Assembly (NCBI RefSeq): GCF_017656375.1
Contig: NZ_JACDOB010000001.1
Span: 124,001 to 188,000 of the forward strand
DNA from: Thermovirga sp.
GTDB lineage: Bacteria > Synergistota > Synergistia > Synergistales > Thermovirgaceae
DNA: 64,000 nucleotides
Reading direction: 5' to 3'
Positions 24,395 to 32,202 of the stretch are shown piece after piece. Every line of letters begins with the position of its first letter. The stretch's first letter is position 1. Both the position numbers and the translations under genes were made by a program. The notes beneath the pieces were generated by a model. The model worked only from the letters and a program-made list of their open reading frames with translations. It ran no database searches and had not been told where the DNA came from.

Positions 24395-24429
24395 CTTGGA
24401 TTGTTTCAAAACTTGTAAAACAATCCAAG
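24395..24429 (-). repeat. Hairpin overlapping the mlaD 3' end
   Basis: 12-bp inverted repeat CTTGGATTGTTT / AAACAATCCAAG (24395-24406 and 24418-24429) with an 11-nt loop that includes the mlaD stop codon. There is no T run after the stem on the minus strand, so it is more likely a message-stabilising or processing hairpin between mlaD and tmk than a full terminator. Confidence 0.55.
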
Positions 24430-25698
24430 AGAATCCCTTACATCTGAATCTCTTTCTTGATGTTTAAAAAACAATCCCCAATCTTCGTCCAGAGCATATT
24501 TGCCCTCTACAGAGAAACTACCACCTGCTTCGTCCCACCATTCCGAGCTTATTACGAAATTACCCCTGGAGAAATTAGGGTTATAAGATAGTCCAAAACC
24601 AAAATAGTCATTTATAGCCCCAGAAACAAATCTCCAATTTCCATAGTCATATCCCACAACCCCTGTAAATCCGGGTTCATCACCTATATTTGCCATCCCC
24701 ATAATTAAAGAGTATGGAGATCCTACCTTGCTCAAGCGAACATAAGTATCAAATATGGGATCTTTCCTATCCAAATCCTCATGTAGATATAAATCTCCTT
24801 CAAGATTTATAGATTCTATAAAAGAAAGGGTTTTATTTGCCCTATCCGCTAACTCAGACAATTTTTTCAAGTTTAAGCCGCTACCTGAGTTATTATCATT
24901 TAAACCTAAGACAAATTCTTTTATTGAAATCGCCATCTCTTGTGTAGATTCTGCAGCTTCCTTAATTTTTAGGACAGTCTGCCTTATATCTTTTCCTGCC
25001 TTTCTATCGTTATCAAAGTCCGAGACTATAAAATTCAATCTCCTAGATAACTCTTCAACATTCTTAACAAGCTTTGCAACATCCTCCTTATTCTCTTCTA
25101 CCATCATATTCATATTCACAGATAACTCCTCAAAAGAGTTAGCCGCTTCTCCCACAGAACTAGCAGCATTGATAATTGCAGGTTTGGCCTCTTTTATAAA
25201 GCTATCCATATTATCTGCCGCCTGCGAAAGGTTCTCTAAAAAATTGTTTACCTTTAAAAATGTTGCTTTTATATCTCCAAGTCCTTCCTCTATATCTTCA
25301 AGTATTTCATCAAAGGACGGAGGCAAAACTCCTCTTACTCTAACTCCAGGTTGTAATAATTTTTTGGAAGTTCCCCTTATTATTTTTACCCTAGGCTCCC
25401 CTAATAACCCTCCAGTATCTATAGTAAATTTACTATCTACAGGCACTGGCACTTCCTCTTTCAGGCCCACTCTAACTAATACTCCTCTATCCAATAATTT
25501 CATTGCATTCACTTGACCAGATTCTATTCCTGAGACCAAAACTGGCGAGCCAATGTTCAACCCCATGGCATCTTCGAACACTATATCTAGCTGGTATCCA
25601 CTTTCTCCAAAACGTAAACCCCCACTAAAAGACACTAACACACTGAGCAAGATTATCGCCATAAGAGCAAAAGTCCCTATTTTTATCTCTCTGGTCAT
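24406..25698 (-). CDS. mlaD: MCE/MlaD-type lipid transport protein with beta-rich C-terminus
   Basis: Periplasmic substrate-binding component of an Mla-type phospholipid transporter. An N-terminal membrane anchor (about 5-25) precedes the MCE domain (about 33-110, with GSPVLVSGIESGQV). Residues 130-300 are a long helical, coiled-coil-like region. Residues 300-430 alternate polar and aromatic residues and end in GLFYKF with a terminal Phe, as outer-membrane beta-barrel proteins do. The start at 25698 overlaps the mlaF stop as ATGA and has GGAGGAG seven bases upstream (430 residues). The helical part probably spans the periplasm. The C-terminal interpretation is an inference. Confidence 0.88.
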   Translation of the reverse strand: MTREIKIGTFALMAIILLSVLVSFSGGLRFGESGYQLDIVFEDAMGLNIGSPVLVSGIESGQVNAMKLLDRGVLVRVGLKEEVPVPVDSKFTIDTGGLLGEPRVKIIRGTSKKLLQPGVRVRGVLPPSFDEILEDIEEGLGDIKATFLKVNNFLENLSQAADNMDSFIKEAKPAIINAASSVGEAANSFEELSVNMNMMVEENKEDVAKLVKNVEELSRRLNFIVSDFDNDRKAGKDIRQTVLKIKEAAESTQEMAISIKEFVLGLNDNNSGSGLNLKKLSELADRANKTLSFIESINLEGDLYLHEDLDRKDPIFDTYVRLSKVGSPYSLIMGMANIGDEPGFTGVVGYDYGNWRFVSGAINDYFGFGLSYNPNFSRGNFVISSEWWDEAGGSFSVEGKYALDEDWGLFFKHQERDSDVRDSLGLFYKF

Positions 25699-26462
25699 AG
25701 TAATTCTCCTCCACGCACTGAAACAAGCCCCGACGAAAAACGCTTTACCGCCGTGTTGCTCGTTTCCCTCCACTCTTCACAAGTTCCACGCCAAACAACT
25801 CGTCCATTTTCCATCAAAACTAATCTGTCAGCTATGCCTAGTGCTGACACCATGTCGTGGGTTACAACTAAAACCGCTACTCCAAACTTCCTACACAAAT
25901 TTACAATCAAGGCATCTATATGTCTCGCAGTCAAGGGATCCAATCCAGTTGTAGGTTCATCTAACAACAAAACCTCCGGTTCGTGAACTAAGGCTCTTGC
26001 TATCGCAACTCGCTTCCTCATGCCACCGGAAAGCTCAGAGGGGTACAAATTACTTACATTTCCTAGTTCTACATGTTTTAATATTTCCTTCGTCTTCTCT
26101 TCTATAGTTTCCCTATCCGCTATTCCTTTACAATACTTTAACGGAAATGCAATATTTTCCCCTACAGTTAAGGAGTCAAACAAAGCTCCACCTTGAAAAA
26201 CCACACCTAGTCTCTTCCTAAAAGCAGTTATTTCCCTTTCATCTGTAGCAGATGTTATCTGAGCCTCAAAAAACTTAATTCGTCCCTTTTGTATCTTCTG
26301 CAGGCCAGCAACAACCCTGAGTGTCGTAGTCTTACCACACCCAGAGGGCCCTAATATACACTTCACCTCTCCCATGCTTAAAGATAAGTTTACTTCTTTT
26401 AATGCTCTCTTTTCTCCAAAAAACACTGATACTTCTTCAAGCATTACGATGGGAGTACTCAA
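25695..26462 (-). CDS. mlaF: ABC transporter ATPase, MlaF-type
   Basis: Cytosolic ATPase of the MlaEFD lipid transporter. Walker A is GPSGCGKTTT, the signature motif is LSGGMRKRVAIARAL, Walker B is EVLLLDEPTTGLDP and the H-loop is VVTHD. I prefer a TTG at 26462 (255 residues): it overlaps the mlaE stop in a TTGA arrangement and has GGGGGG eight bases upstream, whereas the ATG at 26444 has no SD. This predicts translational coupling with mlaE. Confidence 0.92.
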   Translation of the reverse strand: MSTPIVMLEEVSVFFGEKRALKEVNLSLSMGEVKCILGPSGCGKTTTLRVVAGLQKIQKGRIKFFEAQITSATDEREITAFRKRLGVVFQGGALFDSLTVGENIAFPLKYCKGIADRETIEEKTKEILKHVELGNVSNLYPSELSGGMRKRVAIARALVHEPEVLLLDEPTTGLDPLTARHIDALIVNLCRKFGVAVLVVTHDMVSALGIADRLVLMENGRVVWRGTCEEWRETSNTAVKRFSSGLVSVRGGELL

Positions 26463-27238
26463 CCAGTTATCCCCCCAAACAGAAGGCTTGAAAGGATATA
26501 GTTCGTGGCTAATATCAGCATATTGCTCCACACAACGGCTCTCGTAGTAGCCACTCCTACTCCTTTAGCCCCTTGTCCTGCTCTGAACCCCTGAGTGCAA
26601 GCAGAAGTAGCTATCAAGAGTCCAAACACAGCAGCCTTAAAAATTCCCCCCCATATATCGTAGGGATCCAAAAGAACTTCCAAAGATTTCTTAAAAATAT
26701 GAGAGTTTACACCATGAGATAATACATACAAAAAAGCTCCCCCTATACCTACAAAATCAGAGAAGATAGTCAAAGCTGGTAACATTATAAAACTCGCTAG
26801 CAACCTTGGTGCACCAACAAAGACCACGTCATCTAAACCGAAGGCCTTAAGGGCATCTAATTGCTCAGTGACTTTCATGGAACTTATTTCTGCAGCCATT
26901 GACGCTCCTACTCTTCCGCTAACCACCAATCCTGTAAGCACCGGTGAAAGCTCCCTCGTTATACTTAAACCTATTACGCCTCCTATATAACCAGTTGCCC
27001 CAAACTTTATAAATTGATCTATAGTTTGAACCGCAATGACCATTCCAGTAAAAGCGCTTGTGATAGCTACCATAAATACTGAGCTAACACCTATACGCTC
27101 CATTTGCTCCGAAAAATCCTGCAAACTCCAGGTCTTTGAAACTAGCCCACTTATGATTTTGAAGAAAATAATAAAAAATACGCCGAGGCTTTCAACCGTT
27201 ACTATAATCTCGTGCCCCAGCCAACTGATAAACTGCAA
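26459..27238 (-). CDS. mlaE: ABC transporter permease, MlaE family
   Basis: Inner-membrane permease of the lipid transporter. Family hallmarks are TSAFTGMVIAVQ, SITRELSPVLTGLVVSGRVG, AAEISSMKVTEQLDALKAFG and ACTQGFRAGQGAKGVGVATT. Five or six hydrophobic segments are visible. The TTG at 27238 is chosen because GGAAGGGGG lies seven bases upstream (259 residues); an in-frame TTG seven codons earlier lacks an SD. It is followed by mlaF and mlaD; no mlaB or mlaC is present here. Confidence 0.92.
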   Translation of the reverse strand: MQFISWLGHEIIVTVESLGVFFIIFFKIISGLVSKTWSLQDFSEQMERIGVSSVFMVAITSAFTGMVIAVQTIDQFIKFGATGYIGGVIGLSITRELSPVLTGLVVSGRVGASMAAEISSMKVTEQLDALKAFGLDDVVFVGAPRLLASFIMLPALTIFSDFVGIGGAFLYVLSHGVNSHIFKKSLEVLLDPYDIWGGIFKAAVFGLLIATSACTQGFRAGQGAKGVGVATTRAVVWSNMLILATNYILSSLLFGGITG

Positions 27239-27268
27239 ACCTCGGCCCCCTTCCAGCAAAGCAAAAAT

Positions 27269-29038
27269 CTAATTATTTCTTTGCTTACCTGATACCTTGA
27301 CCAACTTCCTCAAAAGACCATCTACGTAATAATTGGATTTATAAACTTTCAAAAGCCCCTTTTCCATCTTTTCCTTTTTTATTTCACTTAAAAGCCTTTT
27401 ATCCTGCTCCTCTGCTTTTGCTTCCCATGGGGCCCTATTGGGTGATCCATCATATCTAAGTTCTACAACAAGCTCATTATTAGCTTCCATGGAATCCAAC
27501 TCACGCAAGAGTTCCTTTAAATCCGTAATGGCCCTCCAGCCTTGCAATAACGACTCCTGAGAAGGTTCTTCTATACCTCCACCCCTTACCACTACTTCGT
27601 AAGTTCCTACAGCATCTTCAGGCATATTTAATACGAATTTCTTTTCTACTGCTCTTCCTCTGAACGGACGCATTTTTACAGTTATCTCAAAAGGTTCACC
27701 TGGTTTTAAAGGCTCTTTTGGCACAGTCAACCCTTCTATGAGGAGAATTCTAGGTTCTTGCGTTACTTCTACATCAATATGAACTCCGAAAGGATTTATT
27801 TCATAATAAGGGTTTAACATGATAGCTTTAGTAATATCTATGGCCTCAGAGAACATGTCCTTTCCCAAATCCTTATCTGAATAAAAGATGTTTGATCTCC
27901 TCCAACCATCAACCAGAGATCCACCTTCTATTTCCAAGTCAACTTTTGCTGTCCCTTCCCCTTTCCTCTCCCAAATATTATCCCATAATCCAACTAAAAT
28001 GTTATCAAGAAGATTACTTAAGAGAAAAGGGTCGTTAACGAATTGAAACCGTTTCTTGACAACCTTACCGGTATCTTTGTCTTTCATACTGAGGGAGAAA
28101 TCAAACGCTGGAGGAATCTTTCCCAAATATCCCCCAATAGCCTGAGGCCTGTCCTGCGTTACTACACCTACAATTTCGGTGGGAGTTCCTATTTTAAAAG
28201 GGGCCTCTAGGCTCGGTATAACATCATGTATCCAAGCTTTTGCTACAGGATAATAAACGGCACCACGGTTCAAAAATGGATGAGCAAAAGCCAGGAAACG
28301 TCCGTCGGTAGATAAAGCTGTTAATGTTCCTGTAGCAGCAACGGAGACATCTCCCCAAGCTAATAGAACACTAACAGCATCTCCCGGAATGAGTTTTGCA
28401 TTTAGGTTAACTGGTAAAGAAGAAACATTAAAAGAGCCTGGCAACATGGAGTAGCTGACATTTAGCTTTTGGCCTATCCCACTAGCACCACGATCACTGA
28501 GTCCATATATAGTCATGGGGGTCGACAGATTACCCGCTTTTTTAGCGTTGCTTTCTTTTTTTTCATCACTGCTTTCAATAGATATTTTAATTGGTCCCTT
28601 CAACTCGACAGCTCTATCAGGCCAGTTCCAAATTGATGCCATTTCAGATATAGGGGTCACAAGCCCTTTGTTATGCTCGCTGAAGTGCCAACCATACCCT
28701 ATAGCGCCAACAAGTTTGCCGTTTATGAAAACAGGACTTCCACTCATCCCTGCCGCAATTCCCCCTGTTTTCTCTATGACTGGGCCATAGGCTTGAATTA
28801 ATATCAATTTGTGCGGCAAATCAGCTGATGGTAGCACGCTTAAAACTTTCACAGGAAATGCAACTACCTTTTGACCTTTAATGACCGTGTAGGCAACTCC
28901 TTCCATGCCTGCCTTAATATCTTCAACGGGCATTACTGGAACCTTTGAGTTGAATATTTTTGGCTGTGCAAAGGATGGTGACGAACAAAAGATAATAAGC
29001 AGCAGAGAGATCAAGATCCTTAATAGAAACCTATCCAT
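27269..29038 (-). CDS. Exported SpoIVB-type (S55) peptidase domain protein
   Basis: A 589-residue exported protein. A signal peptide ends near SFA-QPK (residue 24). MPVEDIKAGMEGVAYTV precedes GMSGSPVFINGKLVGAIGYGW (about 97-117), the serine-bearing S55 signature. DGRFLAFAHPFLNRG (His253) resembles the histidine segment of SpoIVB but comes after the serine motif rather than before it. The remainder contains beta-rich domains and a charged C-terminus. The ATG at 29038 has GGAGG eight bases upstream. It lies between prfB and mlaE, so a role in envelope or Mla protein processing is plausible. No sporulation genes are seen. Catalysis is unproven. Confidence 0.8.
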   Translation of the reverse strand: MDRFLLRILISLLLIIFCSSPSFAQPKIFNSKVPVMPVEDIKAGMEGVAYTVIKGQKVVAFPVKVLSVLPSADLPHKLILIQAYGPVIEKTGGIAAGMSGSPVFINGKLVGAIGYGWHFSEHNKGLVTPISEMASIWNWPDRAVELKGPIKISIESSDEKKESNAKKAGNLSTPMTIYGLSDRGASGIGQKLNVSYSMLPGSFNVSSLPVNLNAKLIPGDAVSVLLAWGDVSVAATGTLTALSTDGRFLAFAHPFLNRGAVYYPVAKAWIHDVIPSLEAPFKIGTPTEIVGVVTQDRPQAIGGYLGKIPPAFDFSLSMKDKDTGKVVKKRFQFVNDPFLLSNLLDNILVGLWDNIWERKGEGTAKVDLEIEGGSLVDGWRRSNIFYSDKDLGKDMFSEAIDITKAIMLNPYYEINPFGVHIDVEVTQEPRILLIEGLTVPKEPLKPGEPFEITVKMRPFRGRAVEKKFVLNMPEDAVGTYEVVVRGGGIEEPSQESLLQGWRAITDLKELLRELDSMEANNELVVELRYDGSPNRAPWEAKAEEQDKRLLSEIKKEKMEKGLLKVYKSNYYVDGLLRKLVKVSGKQRNN

Positions 29039-29072: not shown

Positions 29073-30192
29073 CTAGTCTTCTTTCACTTTGTTGCTTCTC
29101 TTTCGCCTTTTCAACTCTGCGAAAATAAAATCATCTAAATCCCCATCTATTACAGCTTGAATATTGCCCTTTTCCAGCCCGGTACGATGGTCTTTTACCA
29201 AAGTGTAAGGGTGAAAAACATAGGAACGTATTTGGCTCCCCCAACCTATCTCCTTTTTCTCTCCTTGGATTTGTTCGAGCTGTTCCTGTCTTTCCTGCAA
29301 CATCCGTTCATACAAACGGCTCTTCAACACTTTCATTGCCACTTGCCTATTCATGTGCTGAGATCTCTCATTCTGGCAGCTAACCACTATCCCTGTAGGT
29401 ATATGAGTTATTCTAACCGCAGAATCTGTCATATTAACATATTGTCCTCCCGCTCCCCCGGCCCTAAAGGTATCTATTTTTAAATCTTCAGGGTTGATAT
29501 TAATCTCCACGTCCTCCGGGAGCTCTGGAGAAACGTTAATTGAAGCAAAACTAGTATGTCTTCTTTTTGCCGTGTCAAAAGGTGAAATCCTTACAAGCCT
29601 ATGGACACCTCTCTCGCATTTCAGGAATCCATAAGCAAAGGAGCCAAAAACATGAAAGGTTACAGATTTTATCCCTGCTTCCTCACCTTGAGATATTTCA
29701 AGGATTTTAGTTTTAAATCCCTTGTTTTCAGACCATCTAAGGTACATTCTATAAAGGATTTCTGCCCAATCTTGAGAATCAAGCCCACCTGCTCCAGGAT
29801 GAATGCTAACTATTGCATTAGAATCATCATATTCCTCGTCAAGCAACAGCATAACCTGTTCCTCGTCTATCCTCTTGTTAAGCTTTTCTGCTCTTTCGTA
29901 AAACTCTCTCTCTAAAGCTTCATCTTGTTCCATTGTCAATAACTCAGCTATGGTCTCCAAATCCTTGAACTCATTCATCATCTCTTGCCATTTGTTATAA
30001 CGATCCTGGAGCAAAGCCAACTTTTTAGTTAGTTCCTGAGCATCATCTCTGTCCCAGAATCCTTGTTCTGTTGTTTTATCGGTAATTTTTTCTATTTCTG
30101 CTTTCAACGAATTCGGGTCAAAGGCTGTCCTGCAGCTCTATTACCGAAGAGCGCAGTTCCTCCAATATTGTAGATATAGGCAGCAGTGTCAT
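29073..30192 (-). CDS. prfB: Peptide chain release factor 2, with programmed +1 frameshift
   Basis: RF2 terminates translation at UGA and UAA. The gene is read in two frames: the ATG at 30192 (AAGGAGGAG upstream) opens 24 codons beginning MTLLPISTILEELRSSVIEL and ending CTT TGA; skipping one T at 30120 continues DPNSLKAEIEKI and onward to 29073, giving 372 residues. The stop-recognition SPF motif is in ISPFDT and the catalytic GGQ in RAGGAGGQYVN. This is the well-known autoregulatory frameshift of prfB, not a pseudogene. It is the first gene of the long run toward glpX. Confidence 0.96.
30117..30134 (-). promoter_or_regulatory. prfB +1 frameshift site
   Basis: The sequence CAGGACAGCCTTTGAC contains the slippery CTT, the in-frame UGA (30120-30118) and the following C, as in other prfB genes. 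The stimulatory internal SD is weak here, CAGGAC instead of AGGGGG, but is placed similarly, three bases before CTT. Low RF2 is expected to favour frameshifting. Confidence 0.88.
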
Positions 30193-31335: not shown

Positions 31336-32202
31336 TCAAGATGTTGCCAAACGAAAGGCATTCCATACTGATAAGTTGAGTTCATACAGGTAAACAAAAA
31401 AGTCCTGATTTTCGGAAGGATAGCCAAATTTTACCTTAAGAGGCACTTTCTTAAGTACAGAGAGTATCTCTTTGGGTAAGTTGGAGCTGTATACTATTAT
31501 ACCTTTTCGCGCCTTAATAGATAAAATCCTTTTAGTTAATTCTTCTAAAGTTATCTTGCTTGTCTTTTTATTATACCCATTAGTACACTCAAAAAACTGC
31601 CTGCTTTTGCCACTAACAGCCTTGAACCATCCCCCTAAGTAATCCGTAAAATCGTAAATCTCCACGTCCCACAAAAGTTGTCGACCAACTCTCACAACAC
31701 TGTCCAAGCGAGTCTGAAATTCGGCCAATCTTCTTTGGTAATATGAATAATGTTCAGTATCAATAGCAGAGATGGAACGCATTGCACCTAAAGCAACGAA
31801 AGGAAGCACAGAAGGATCCAAGAAATAACAATCATTATCTAGGCCAGAAGGCTTATTTTCATATATTGGAACTATTCTACTGTGCTTAACTGATATGCCC
31901 AATTTTTTACTTTTTTCCTGCCCCCTATAAAGAACAAAGACATAAGAACCTCTTGGGACATTTGACACTTTTACTATATCCCCATTTTCATCCCAAAAAG
32001 AAACAGGGTGCACATCACAGTACACCCCTCCTATAAATTTTACTATGACATACAGCCAAGGATCAGAAACCCATATCTGGGTCCTATGCTCCTCAGCAAG
32101 AACCTTAGTAGAGAAAATCGTTAGGCAAAAAACTATCATGAAGAAAACATTAAATAATCGCATGTTTTTAAATTTAATTTTTTGAAAGACGCTTTTTAAC
32201 AC
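31336..32202 (-). CDS. Exported protein of unknown function, faintly TroA/ZnuA-like
   Basis: Not confidently recognised. The 288 residues begin with a basic stretch and a hydrophobic signal segment (NVFFMIVFCLTIFSTKVLA), predicting export. The region CYFLDPSVLPFVALGAMRSI followed by SAIDTEHYSYYQRRLAEFQTRL resembles the stretch of metal-ABC substrate-binding proteins (HxWLDP...DP..Y..N...F...L), but the metal-ligand histidines are not conserved. The GTG start overlaps the pyrE stop by one base (TAGTG) with an AGG nearby, so it is co-translated with pyrE and is the last gene of the pyr operon. No transporter genes are adjacent. The homology is a weak inference. Confidence 0.55.
   Translation of the reverse strand: MLKSVFQKIKFKNMRLFNVFFMIVFCLTIFSTKVLAEEHRTQIWVSDPWLYVIVKFIGGVYCDVHPVSFWDENGDIVKVSNVPRGSYVFVLYRGQEKSKKLGISVKHSRIVPIYENKPSGLDNDCYFLDPSVLPFVALGAMRSISAIDTEHYSYYQRRLAEFQTRLDSVVRVGRQLLWDVEIYDFTDYLGGWFKAVSGKSRQFFECTNGYNKKTSKITLEELTKRILSIKARKGIIVYSSNLPKEILSVLKKVPLKVKFGYPSENQDFFVYLYELNLSVWNAFRLATS

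Follow-up and report, generated by a model that had tools for sequence, protein, structure and literature searches.

SpoIVB is the peptidase of MEROPS family S55. In the abstract of its crystal paper, a PDZ domain is described as inserted within the His barrel of SpoIVB (PMC12502668); excerpts of the same paper place Asp363 approximately 24 Å from His236 in the crystal and propose Thr393 as the third residue of the triad. According to an extract of another study, SpoIVB peptidase S55 is widely detected in acidobacteria (PMC8841776). The periplasmic proteases HtrA, DegP, DegQ and DegS have a trypsin-type double barrel. With regard to lipid transport, Veillonella parvula possesses an mlaEFD locus with a long MlaD; according to the same report, Halanaerobiales lack Mla, and the mlaEFD-tolC-tamB arrangement is kept throughout the Negativicutes (PMC10665443). 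Two papers speak of the Negativicutes locus as a large cluster of outer-membrane genes (PMC10665443, PMC5007114). The main text of the former makes no mention of S55, peptidase, protease or SpoIVB.

We analyzed a window of 64,000 nucleotides of DNA from Thermovirga sp., in which one gene resembles SpoIVB and the HtrA-type proteases and neighbors an mlaEFD locus that, like that of V. parvula, encodes a long MlaD. The gene lies on the minus strand, with an ATG at 29038 and a stop codon ending at 27269, and encodes a protein of 589 aa (P0001); GGAGG is present just 5' of the ATG. The features of the locus were as follows.

27269..29038, minus strand: predicted permuted S55-type protein P0001, 589 aa plus stop
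28964..29038, minus strand: N-terminal hydrophobic helix, residues 1-25, by eye a Sec-type signal peptide; helix 2-19 in the model
28604..28960, minus strand: predicted first beta-barrel, residues 27-145, corresponding by hhalign and VIA to the Ser barrel that is C-terminal in SpoIVB, HtrA and trypsin
28733..28750, minus strand: GMSGSP, residues 97-102, containing the predicted nucleophile Ser99, which aligns with SpoIVB Ser378
28004..28426, minus strand: predicted second beta-barrel, residues 205-345, equivalent by hhalign to SpoIVB's N-terminal His barrel
28280..28282, minus strand: His253 in FAHPF, the predicted general base; the alignment places it opposite the histidine of the SpoIVB GH motif
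28151..28153, minus strand: Asp296 (TQDR), predicted third triad residue, in 153/153 rows
28349..28351, minus strand: Asp230 (WGDV), the other Asp that is invariant in the His barrel
27272..28003, minus strand: C-terminal region, residues 346-589, mixed alpha/beta and part strand-rich in the model, with no SpoIVB match
26459..27259, minus strand: mlaE permease (PF02405, 1.9e-70)
25695..26531, minus strand: ABC ATPase in the mlaF position (PF00005, 2.1e-35; NCBIfam MlaF equivalog below cut-off)
24406..25773, minus strand: long MlaD (MCE) protein, 455 aa (PF02470, 4.3e-14; TIGR00996, 8.1e-20, below cut-off)
29073..30192, minus strand: prfB, the gene preceding P0001 (PF03462 and PF00472; CTT TGA C frameshift site)

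The genes prfB, P0001, mlaE, mlaF and mlaD follow one another on one strand, and mlaE, taken with a TTG start, begins 9 bp past the P0001 stop; the initial annotation had placed the P0001 gene directly upstream of mlaE-mlaF-mlaD. Three observations were made on the surrounding genes. The canonical RF2 frameshift site in prfB, a site well known in bacteria, is at 30123-30117, so that the coding sequence begins at 30192 and changes frame by +1. The C-terminus of MlaD (24406-25773) appeared by eye to contain outer-membrane barrel strands ending in Phe, resembling the trans-envelope MlaD described for V. parvula (PMC10665443). A 288-aa protein with a hydrophobic start, encoded at 31336-32202 on the minus strand, resembled by eye a metal-binding ABC substrate protein.

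P0001 was the only match to Pfam Peptidase_S55 (PF05580) in the host genome, which has 3 other matches to the trypsin-type model PF13365. The match covered residues 27-127 against positions 104-203 of the 210-position profile (E 2e-12; 48 bits against a gathering cut-off of 25), and therefore only the C-terminal half of the profile. A match of that half to the N-terminus of P0001 hinted at a swap. The NCBIfam SpoIVB equivalog TIGR02860 (spore_IV_B) gave 50.8 bits, far below its cut-off of 305.25. When P0001 was searched against PDB sequences, SpoIVB was the sole significant match, and HtrA was not among the matches listed. The names that Pfam and NCBIfam give to P0001 come from SpoIVB, via one half of the protein. 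Both proteins have the GMSGSP and GH/AH motifs and 2 barrels homologous by profile. P0001 differs from SpoIVB in its reversed barrels, its long C-terminal region, the lack of any PDZ domain in Pfam at E 0.001, and the lack of Spo0A in its genome. With HtrA, DegP, DegQ and DegS it shares a predicted trypsin-type double barrel and a likely periplasmic location; it differs from them likewise in barrel order and in that no PDZ was found. The absence of visible sporulation genes noted in the initial annotation held for Spo0A, which was looked for in the host genome (99% complete) and not found.

The motifs of P0001 had been reported as GMSGSP near residue 100 and a candidate His at 253, and they are at residues 97-102 and in FAHPF, respectively; the collinear S55 order of His motif followed by GMSGSP is therefore absent. 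The motif order that the initial annotation gave for SpoIVB proved correct. The GH motif preceded GMSGSP in all 10 aligned SpoIVB sequences, so the reversal in P0001 is real.

Profiles were built from 64 sequences for the regions of the P0001 family and from 10 for SpoIVB, and were compared with hhalign. Region 27-145 of P0001 matched the Ser half of SpoIVB with an E-value of 7.5e-23, versus 0.22 for the His half. Conversely, region 205-345 matched the His half with an E-value of 3.5e-5 (probability 72%), versus 0.14 for the Ser half. The His-barrel score of 33.9 was reached by none of 150 column shuffles, the largest of which was 26.2; compared with the whole of SpoIVB, the His barrel was a modest match (probability 41%). 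Duplicating the SpoIVB domain allowed one alignment to span both barrels, at a local score that was not raised (131.4 versus 131.8). Region 346-589 had no match to the SpoIVB profile (hhalign E 0.25), so a second Ser barrel was not detected beyond the His barrel. The Ser-barrel HMM matched the 10 SpoIVB sequences at their C-terminal end only. As a separate observation, the first strands of the His barrel gave a weak match (E 0.003) to the beginning of the PDZ region of SpoIVB (profile 100-217, reference L152), which would fit a PDZ inserted in the SpoIVB His barrel.

Relatives were collected by protein searches, in which the best-scoring 30 loci each were kept, and by a motif scan that fixed GMSGSP and fetched at least 119 loci (L033-L151). 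Alignment A1 contained P0001 and sequences from 20 of the 29 loci of relatives (L003-L031); alignment A2 contained P0001 and 63 of 77 full-length ORFs picked from L033-L151. Scoring with HMMs for both barrels placed the Ser barrel before the His barrel in 197 of 197 ORFs outside the SpoIVB and duplicate sets, a number that includes repeats of one gene from overlapping loci, and none was reversed. A further 21 ORFs from the duplicate set were likewise in the order Ser then His. Four ORFs had a single barrel; those in L040 and L086 were cut by the locus end, and the others were in L131 and L081. The order Ser then His is the rule among the family members seen, which come from many phyla, and is not peculiar to the host. 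A permuted S55 protein was not found described in the open-licence literature, as judged by titles and the opening of abstracts.

The full model of P0001 had a pLDDT of 88.3 and a pTM of 0.85, with 6 main strands in each barrel and 2 extra strands after the second. In the first barrel, Ser99 comes after strand 3; in the second, His253 comes after strand 3 and Asp296 is at the end of strand 5, just ahead of strand 6. These are the places that Ser195, His57 and Asp102 occupy in chymotrypsin. The model therefore has the 2 six-stranded barrels of the PA clan, with Ser, His and Asp at the canonical strand positions, but not the PA-clan barrel order of His then Ser. A Foldseek search against solved structures returned SpoIVB 9lnf in the first row (E 9.8e-4, 118 columns); later rows, including Rv3671c, MucD and DegS, covered approximately 112 columns, which corresponds to one barrel. 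In VIA, the second barrel of DegP and DegQ was matched by residues 32-142 with Z of 8-9; the value was 8.6 for residues 149-258 of 3mh6 and 8.2 for 9lnf. With the whole model, 9lnf was at rank 15 and tied with HtrA rows; in VIA, a Z below 8 may mean a common arrangement only. Residues 168-345 were predicted to fold alone (pLDDT 89.8). For the His barrel alone, Foldseek gave weak and mixed trypsin-fold rows with E of 0.1 or worse, SpoIVB was not among the best 50 rows listed, and VIA placed the barrel on the second rather than the first barrel of DegS with Z below 6. Taken together, the profile comparisons and the predicted model give good support to the fold of P0001 and to its barrel swap. 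The suggestion of circular permutation in the initial annotation was thus borne out, both by the 2x2 profile test with its shuffles and by the strand order in the model.

Ser99, Asp230, His253 and Asp296 were present in 90 of 90 sequences that had not been fetched by motif, and Ser101 in 89 of them. These sequences were the best-scoring 30 each from the host's order (P0001 included), Negativicutes and Halanaerobiales, and distant members may differ. The same 4 residues were invariant in the 63 motif-scan sequences. Conservation of Ser is circular in that set, since the scan motif fixes GMSGSP; His253, Asp230 and Asp296 were not selected by the motif. The residue alignment had 154 rows including P0001, which represent 149 different sequences. 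At the position of Asp296, SpoIVB has Asn in 9 of the 10 sequences and Ser in one, in contrast to the invariant Asp of the P0001 family. SpoIVB Asp363 was considered and rejected as a shared acid, since it is aligned with a column that varies in alignment A1 and is far from His236 in the SpoIVB crystal. Thr393 of SpoIVB is opposite Gly114 of P0001, also in a variable column. We infer from the aligned columns that the permuted family may have kept an ordinary acid that SpoIVB lost.

Genes next to the permuted gene were compared across groups, within each of which counts share descent and are not independent. The permuted gene was carried by 55 of 61 genomes of the host's order, in one of which (G023) it was split over 2 frames. 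MlaE was found in 26 of the 61 genomes (27 hits), and by eye all 27 hits were directly downstream of the permuted gene; the MlaE search gave no hit in the other 29 carriers. Weak matches to Pfam TamB were found in 21 of the 61 genomes (5 of 26 with MlaE and 16 of 35 without, a comparison confounded by descent), and in none of the 20 genomes of the order with both TamB and the permuted gene were these two side by side. With 29 carriers lacking an MlaE hit and TamB never adjacent, a role of the permuted protein for MlaE only, or for TamB only, does not fit. Among Negativicutes, all 60 sampled genomes had a match, and the gene is directly before mlaE, as in the host, in 28 of the best-scoring 30 loci; of the other 2, one locus ends and one has an epimerase-like gene. 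In Sporomusa ovata, the permuted gene is followed by mlaE, mlaF, mlaD and genes for a TolC-type protein and an AsmA/YhdP-like protein, the last cut by the locus end, and a TamB domain is encoded further along the same contig.

Halanaerobiales carried the permuted gene in 35 of 38 genomes. The next gene was TamB-like in 29 of the 29 readable loci among the best-scoring 30, as determined by direct search in 21 and, in the other 8, with an HMM derived from the 21; the 30th locus ends too soon. In L127, from the same group, the next gene is complete and has a Pfam TamB domain. One scanned Halanaerobiales locus and an Atribacteria locus have mreB preceding the permuted gene, and a Mur ligase is its neighbor in one Bipolaricaulota locus. 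TamB was found in 17 of 21 hand-picked genomes, 12 of which had both genes on one contig within approximately 10 kb. A propeller-type family of approximately 730 aa was next to the permuted gene in 51 of the 81 motif-scan loci listed with a same-strand next ORF, including loci from Acidobacteriota, Gemmatimonadota, Latescibacterota, Aminicenantes and Poribacteria. Pfam propeller repeats were detected in 3 of 5 scanned members (for example, L134:2164-4380), and for 11 of the 51 partner genes there is a 4-bp overlap with the permuted gene. In one further locus (L098:1651-5561, minus strand), the permuted gene is in 2 tandem copies, and TamB is on the same contig. The link with mla genes, on which the initial annotation had staked its idea beforehand, is therefore kept in a second phylum. 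It is not exclusive, since TamB-like and propeller-type partners occur and 29 of 61 genomes of the host's order have the gene without MlaE, which rules out Mla as the sole partner.

A tree of 97 rows was built by a quick method with a midpoint root, and 34 rows were flagged for odd composition. Synergistota, Bacillota, Atribacterota and Bipolaricaulota were split from Acidobacteriota and others with 100% SH-aLRT; mla and tamB neighbors are on the Synergistota/Bacillota side, and the propeller partner is on the Acidobacteriota side. Given the midpoint root and the varying composition, this tree suggests, rather than shows, a great age for the permuted family. Full SpoIVB was present alongside the permuted protein in 9 of 20 hand-picked genomes. 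A plasmid search returned one record, which is a SpoIVB.

We favor the reading, at a probability of roughly 0.55, that P0001 is an exported serine endopeptidase of trypsin fold with swapped barrels that acts on envelope proteins, the lipid bridge being the prime candidate substrate. After export, the protein would adopt the trypsin (PA clan) fold with the Ser99 barrel first, followed by the barrel of His253 and Asp296. Packing of the barrels as in HtrA and SpoIVB would then form a Ser-His-Asp triad across the domain interface, and the C-terminal region probably binds partners. Encoded with MlaEFD, or with TamB in relatives, P0001 would most likely cut, mature or clear envelope proteins, among which the trans-envelope lipid bridge (long MlaD, TamB) is the foremost candidate. 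The packing of the triad, catalysis, the periplasmic location and the substrate are predictions, and gene order suggests that P0001 may control envelope lipid traffic.

The main rival is that P0001 is a general periplasmic quality-control protease like HtrA/DegP, whose lipid-gene neighbors reflect an old outer-membrane gene cluster and not its substrate. We regard this as possible, if somewhat doubtful. The strongest evidence against the lipid-bridge reading, and in favor of an HtrA-like role, is the persistence of the gene without MlaE in 29 genomes of the host's order together with its other partners elsewhere. The kinds of neighbor differ between phyla, the closest folds to the model are SpoIVB and HtrA, and the Negativicutes locus has been described, in the parts of the papers cited above, as a large outer-membrane cluster. 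However, the host genome already has its 3 other PF13365 matches, P0001 has no PDZ in Pfam, and the next gene is nearly constant within each group among the best-scoring loci (28/30 in Negativicutes and 29/29 in Halanaerobiales). Moreover, MlaE in the host's order was seen only beside the permuted gene (27/27).

Alternatively, P0001 could serve the lipid bridge as a scaffold or chaperone without catalysis, retaining the protease fold alone. Its 244-residue C-terminal region after the barrels would suit such a role, and catalysis is a prediction, but in a dead enzyme some of the catalytic residues should have been lost, whereas Ser99, His253 and Asp296 are in 90 of 90 best-scoring sequences of 3 groups. 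Invariance of the predicted catalytic residues argues against a dead chaperone, which we consider improbable. The non-catalytic PDZ-like chaperone offered in the initial annotation fared no better, with no Pfam PDZ and the same 3 residues invariant in 153 rows (63 motif-fetched, with a few repeats). It is very improbable that P0001 is simply a SpoIVB of the usual kind, or the product of an assembly or reading error. The matching Pfam and NCBIfam models are named after SpoIVB; however, the TIGR02860 score, the barrel order and the 9 genomes with both proteins rule out an ordinary SpoIVB, Spo0A was also not found in the host genome, and the identical order in all 197 two-barrel ORFs rules out an assembly artefact.

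The swapped halves, the full likely catalytic set and the lipid-transport neighbors in several two-membraned groups lead us to regard P0001 as probably a little-studied protease of outer-membrane upkeep. A bolder account, which we put forward tentatively and think rather unlikely, is that the family is a natural permutation of the trypsin fold as old as the split of the 2 great bacterial divisions, inherited with the outer membrane as a dedicated protease of lipid bridges (MlaEFD, TamB). On this account, SpoIVB would be a descendant or sister that was rewired, interrupted by a PDZ and put to use in sporulation.

If the fold is as predicted, P0001 would be a naturally occurring example of swapped barrels in one of the best-studied enzyme folds. 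Its invariant Asp296 is relevant to the acid reported to be missing from the SpoIVB triad (PMC12502668). For the assembly and regulation of inter-membrane lipid bridges, a conserved, putatively exported protease encoded beside MlaEFD or a TamB-like gene would be a directly testable regulator.
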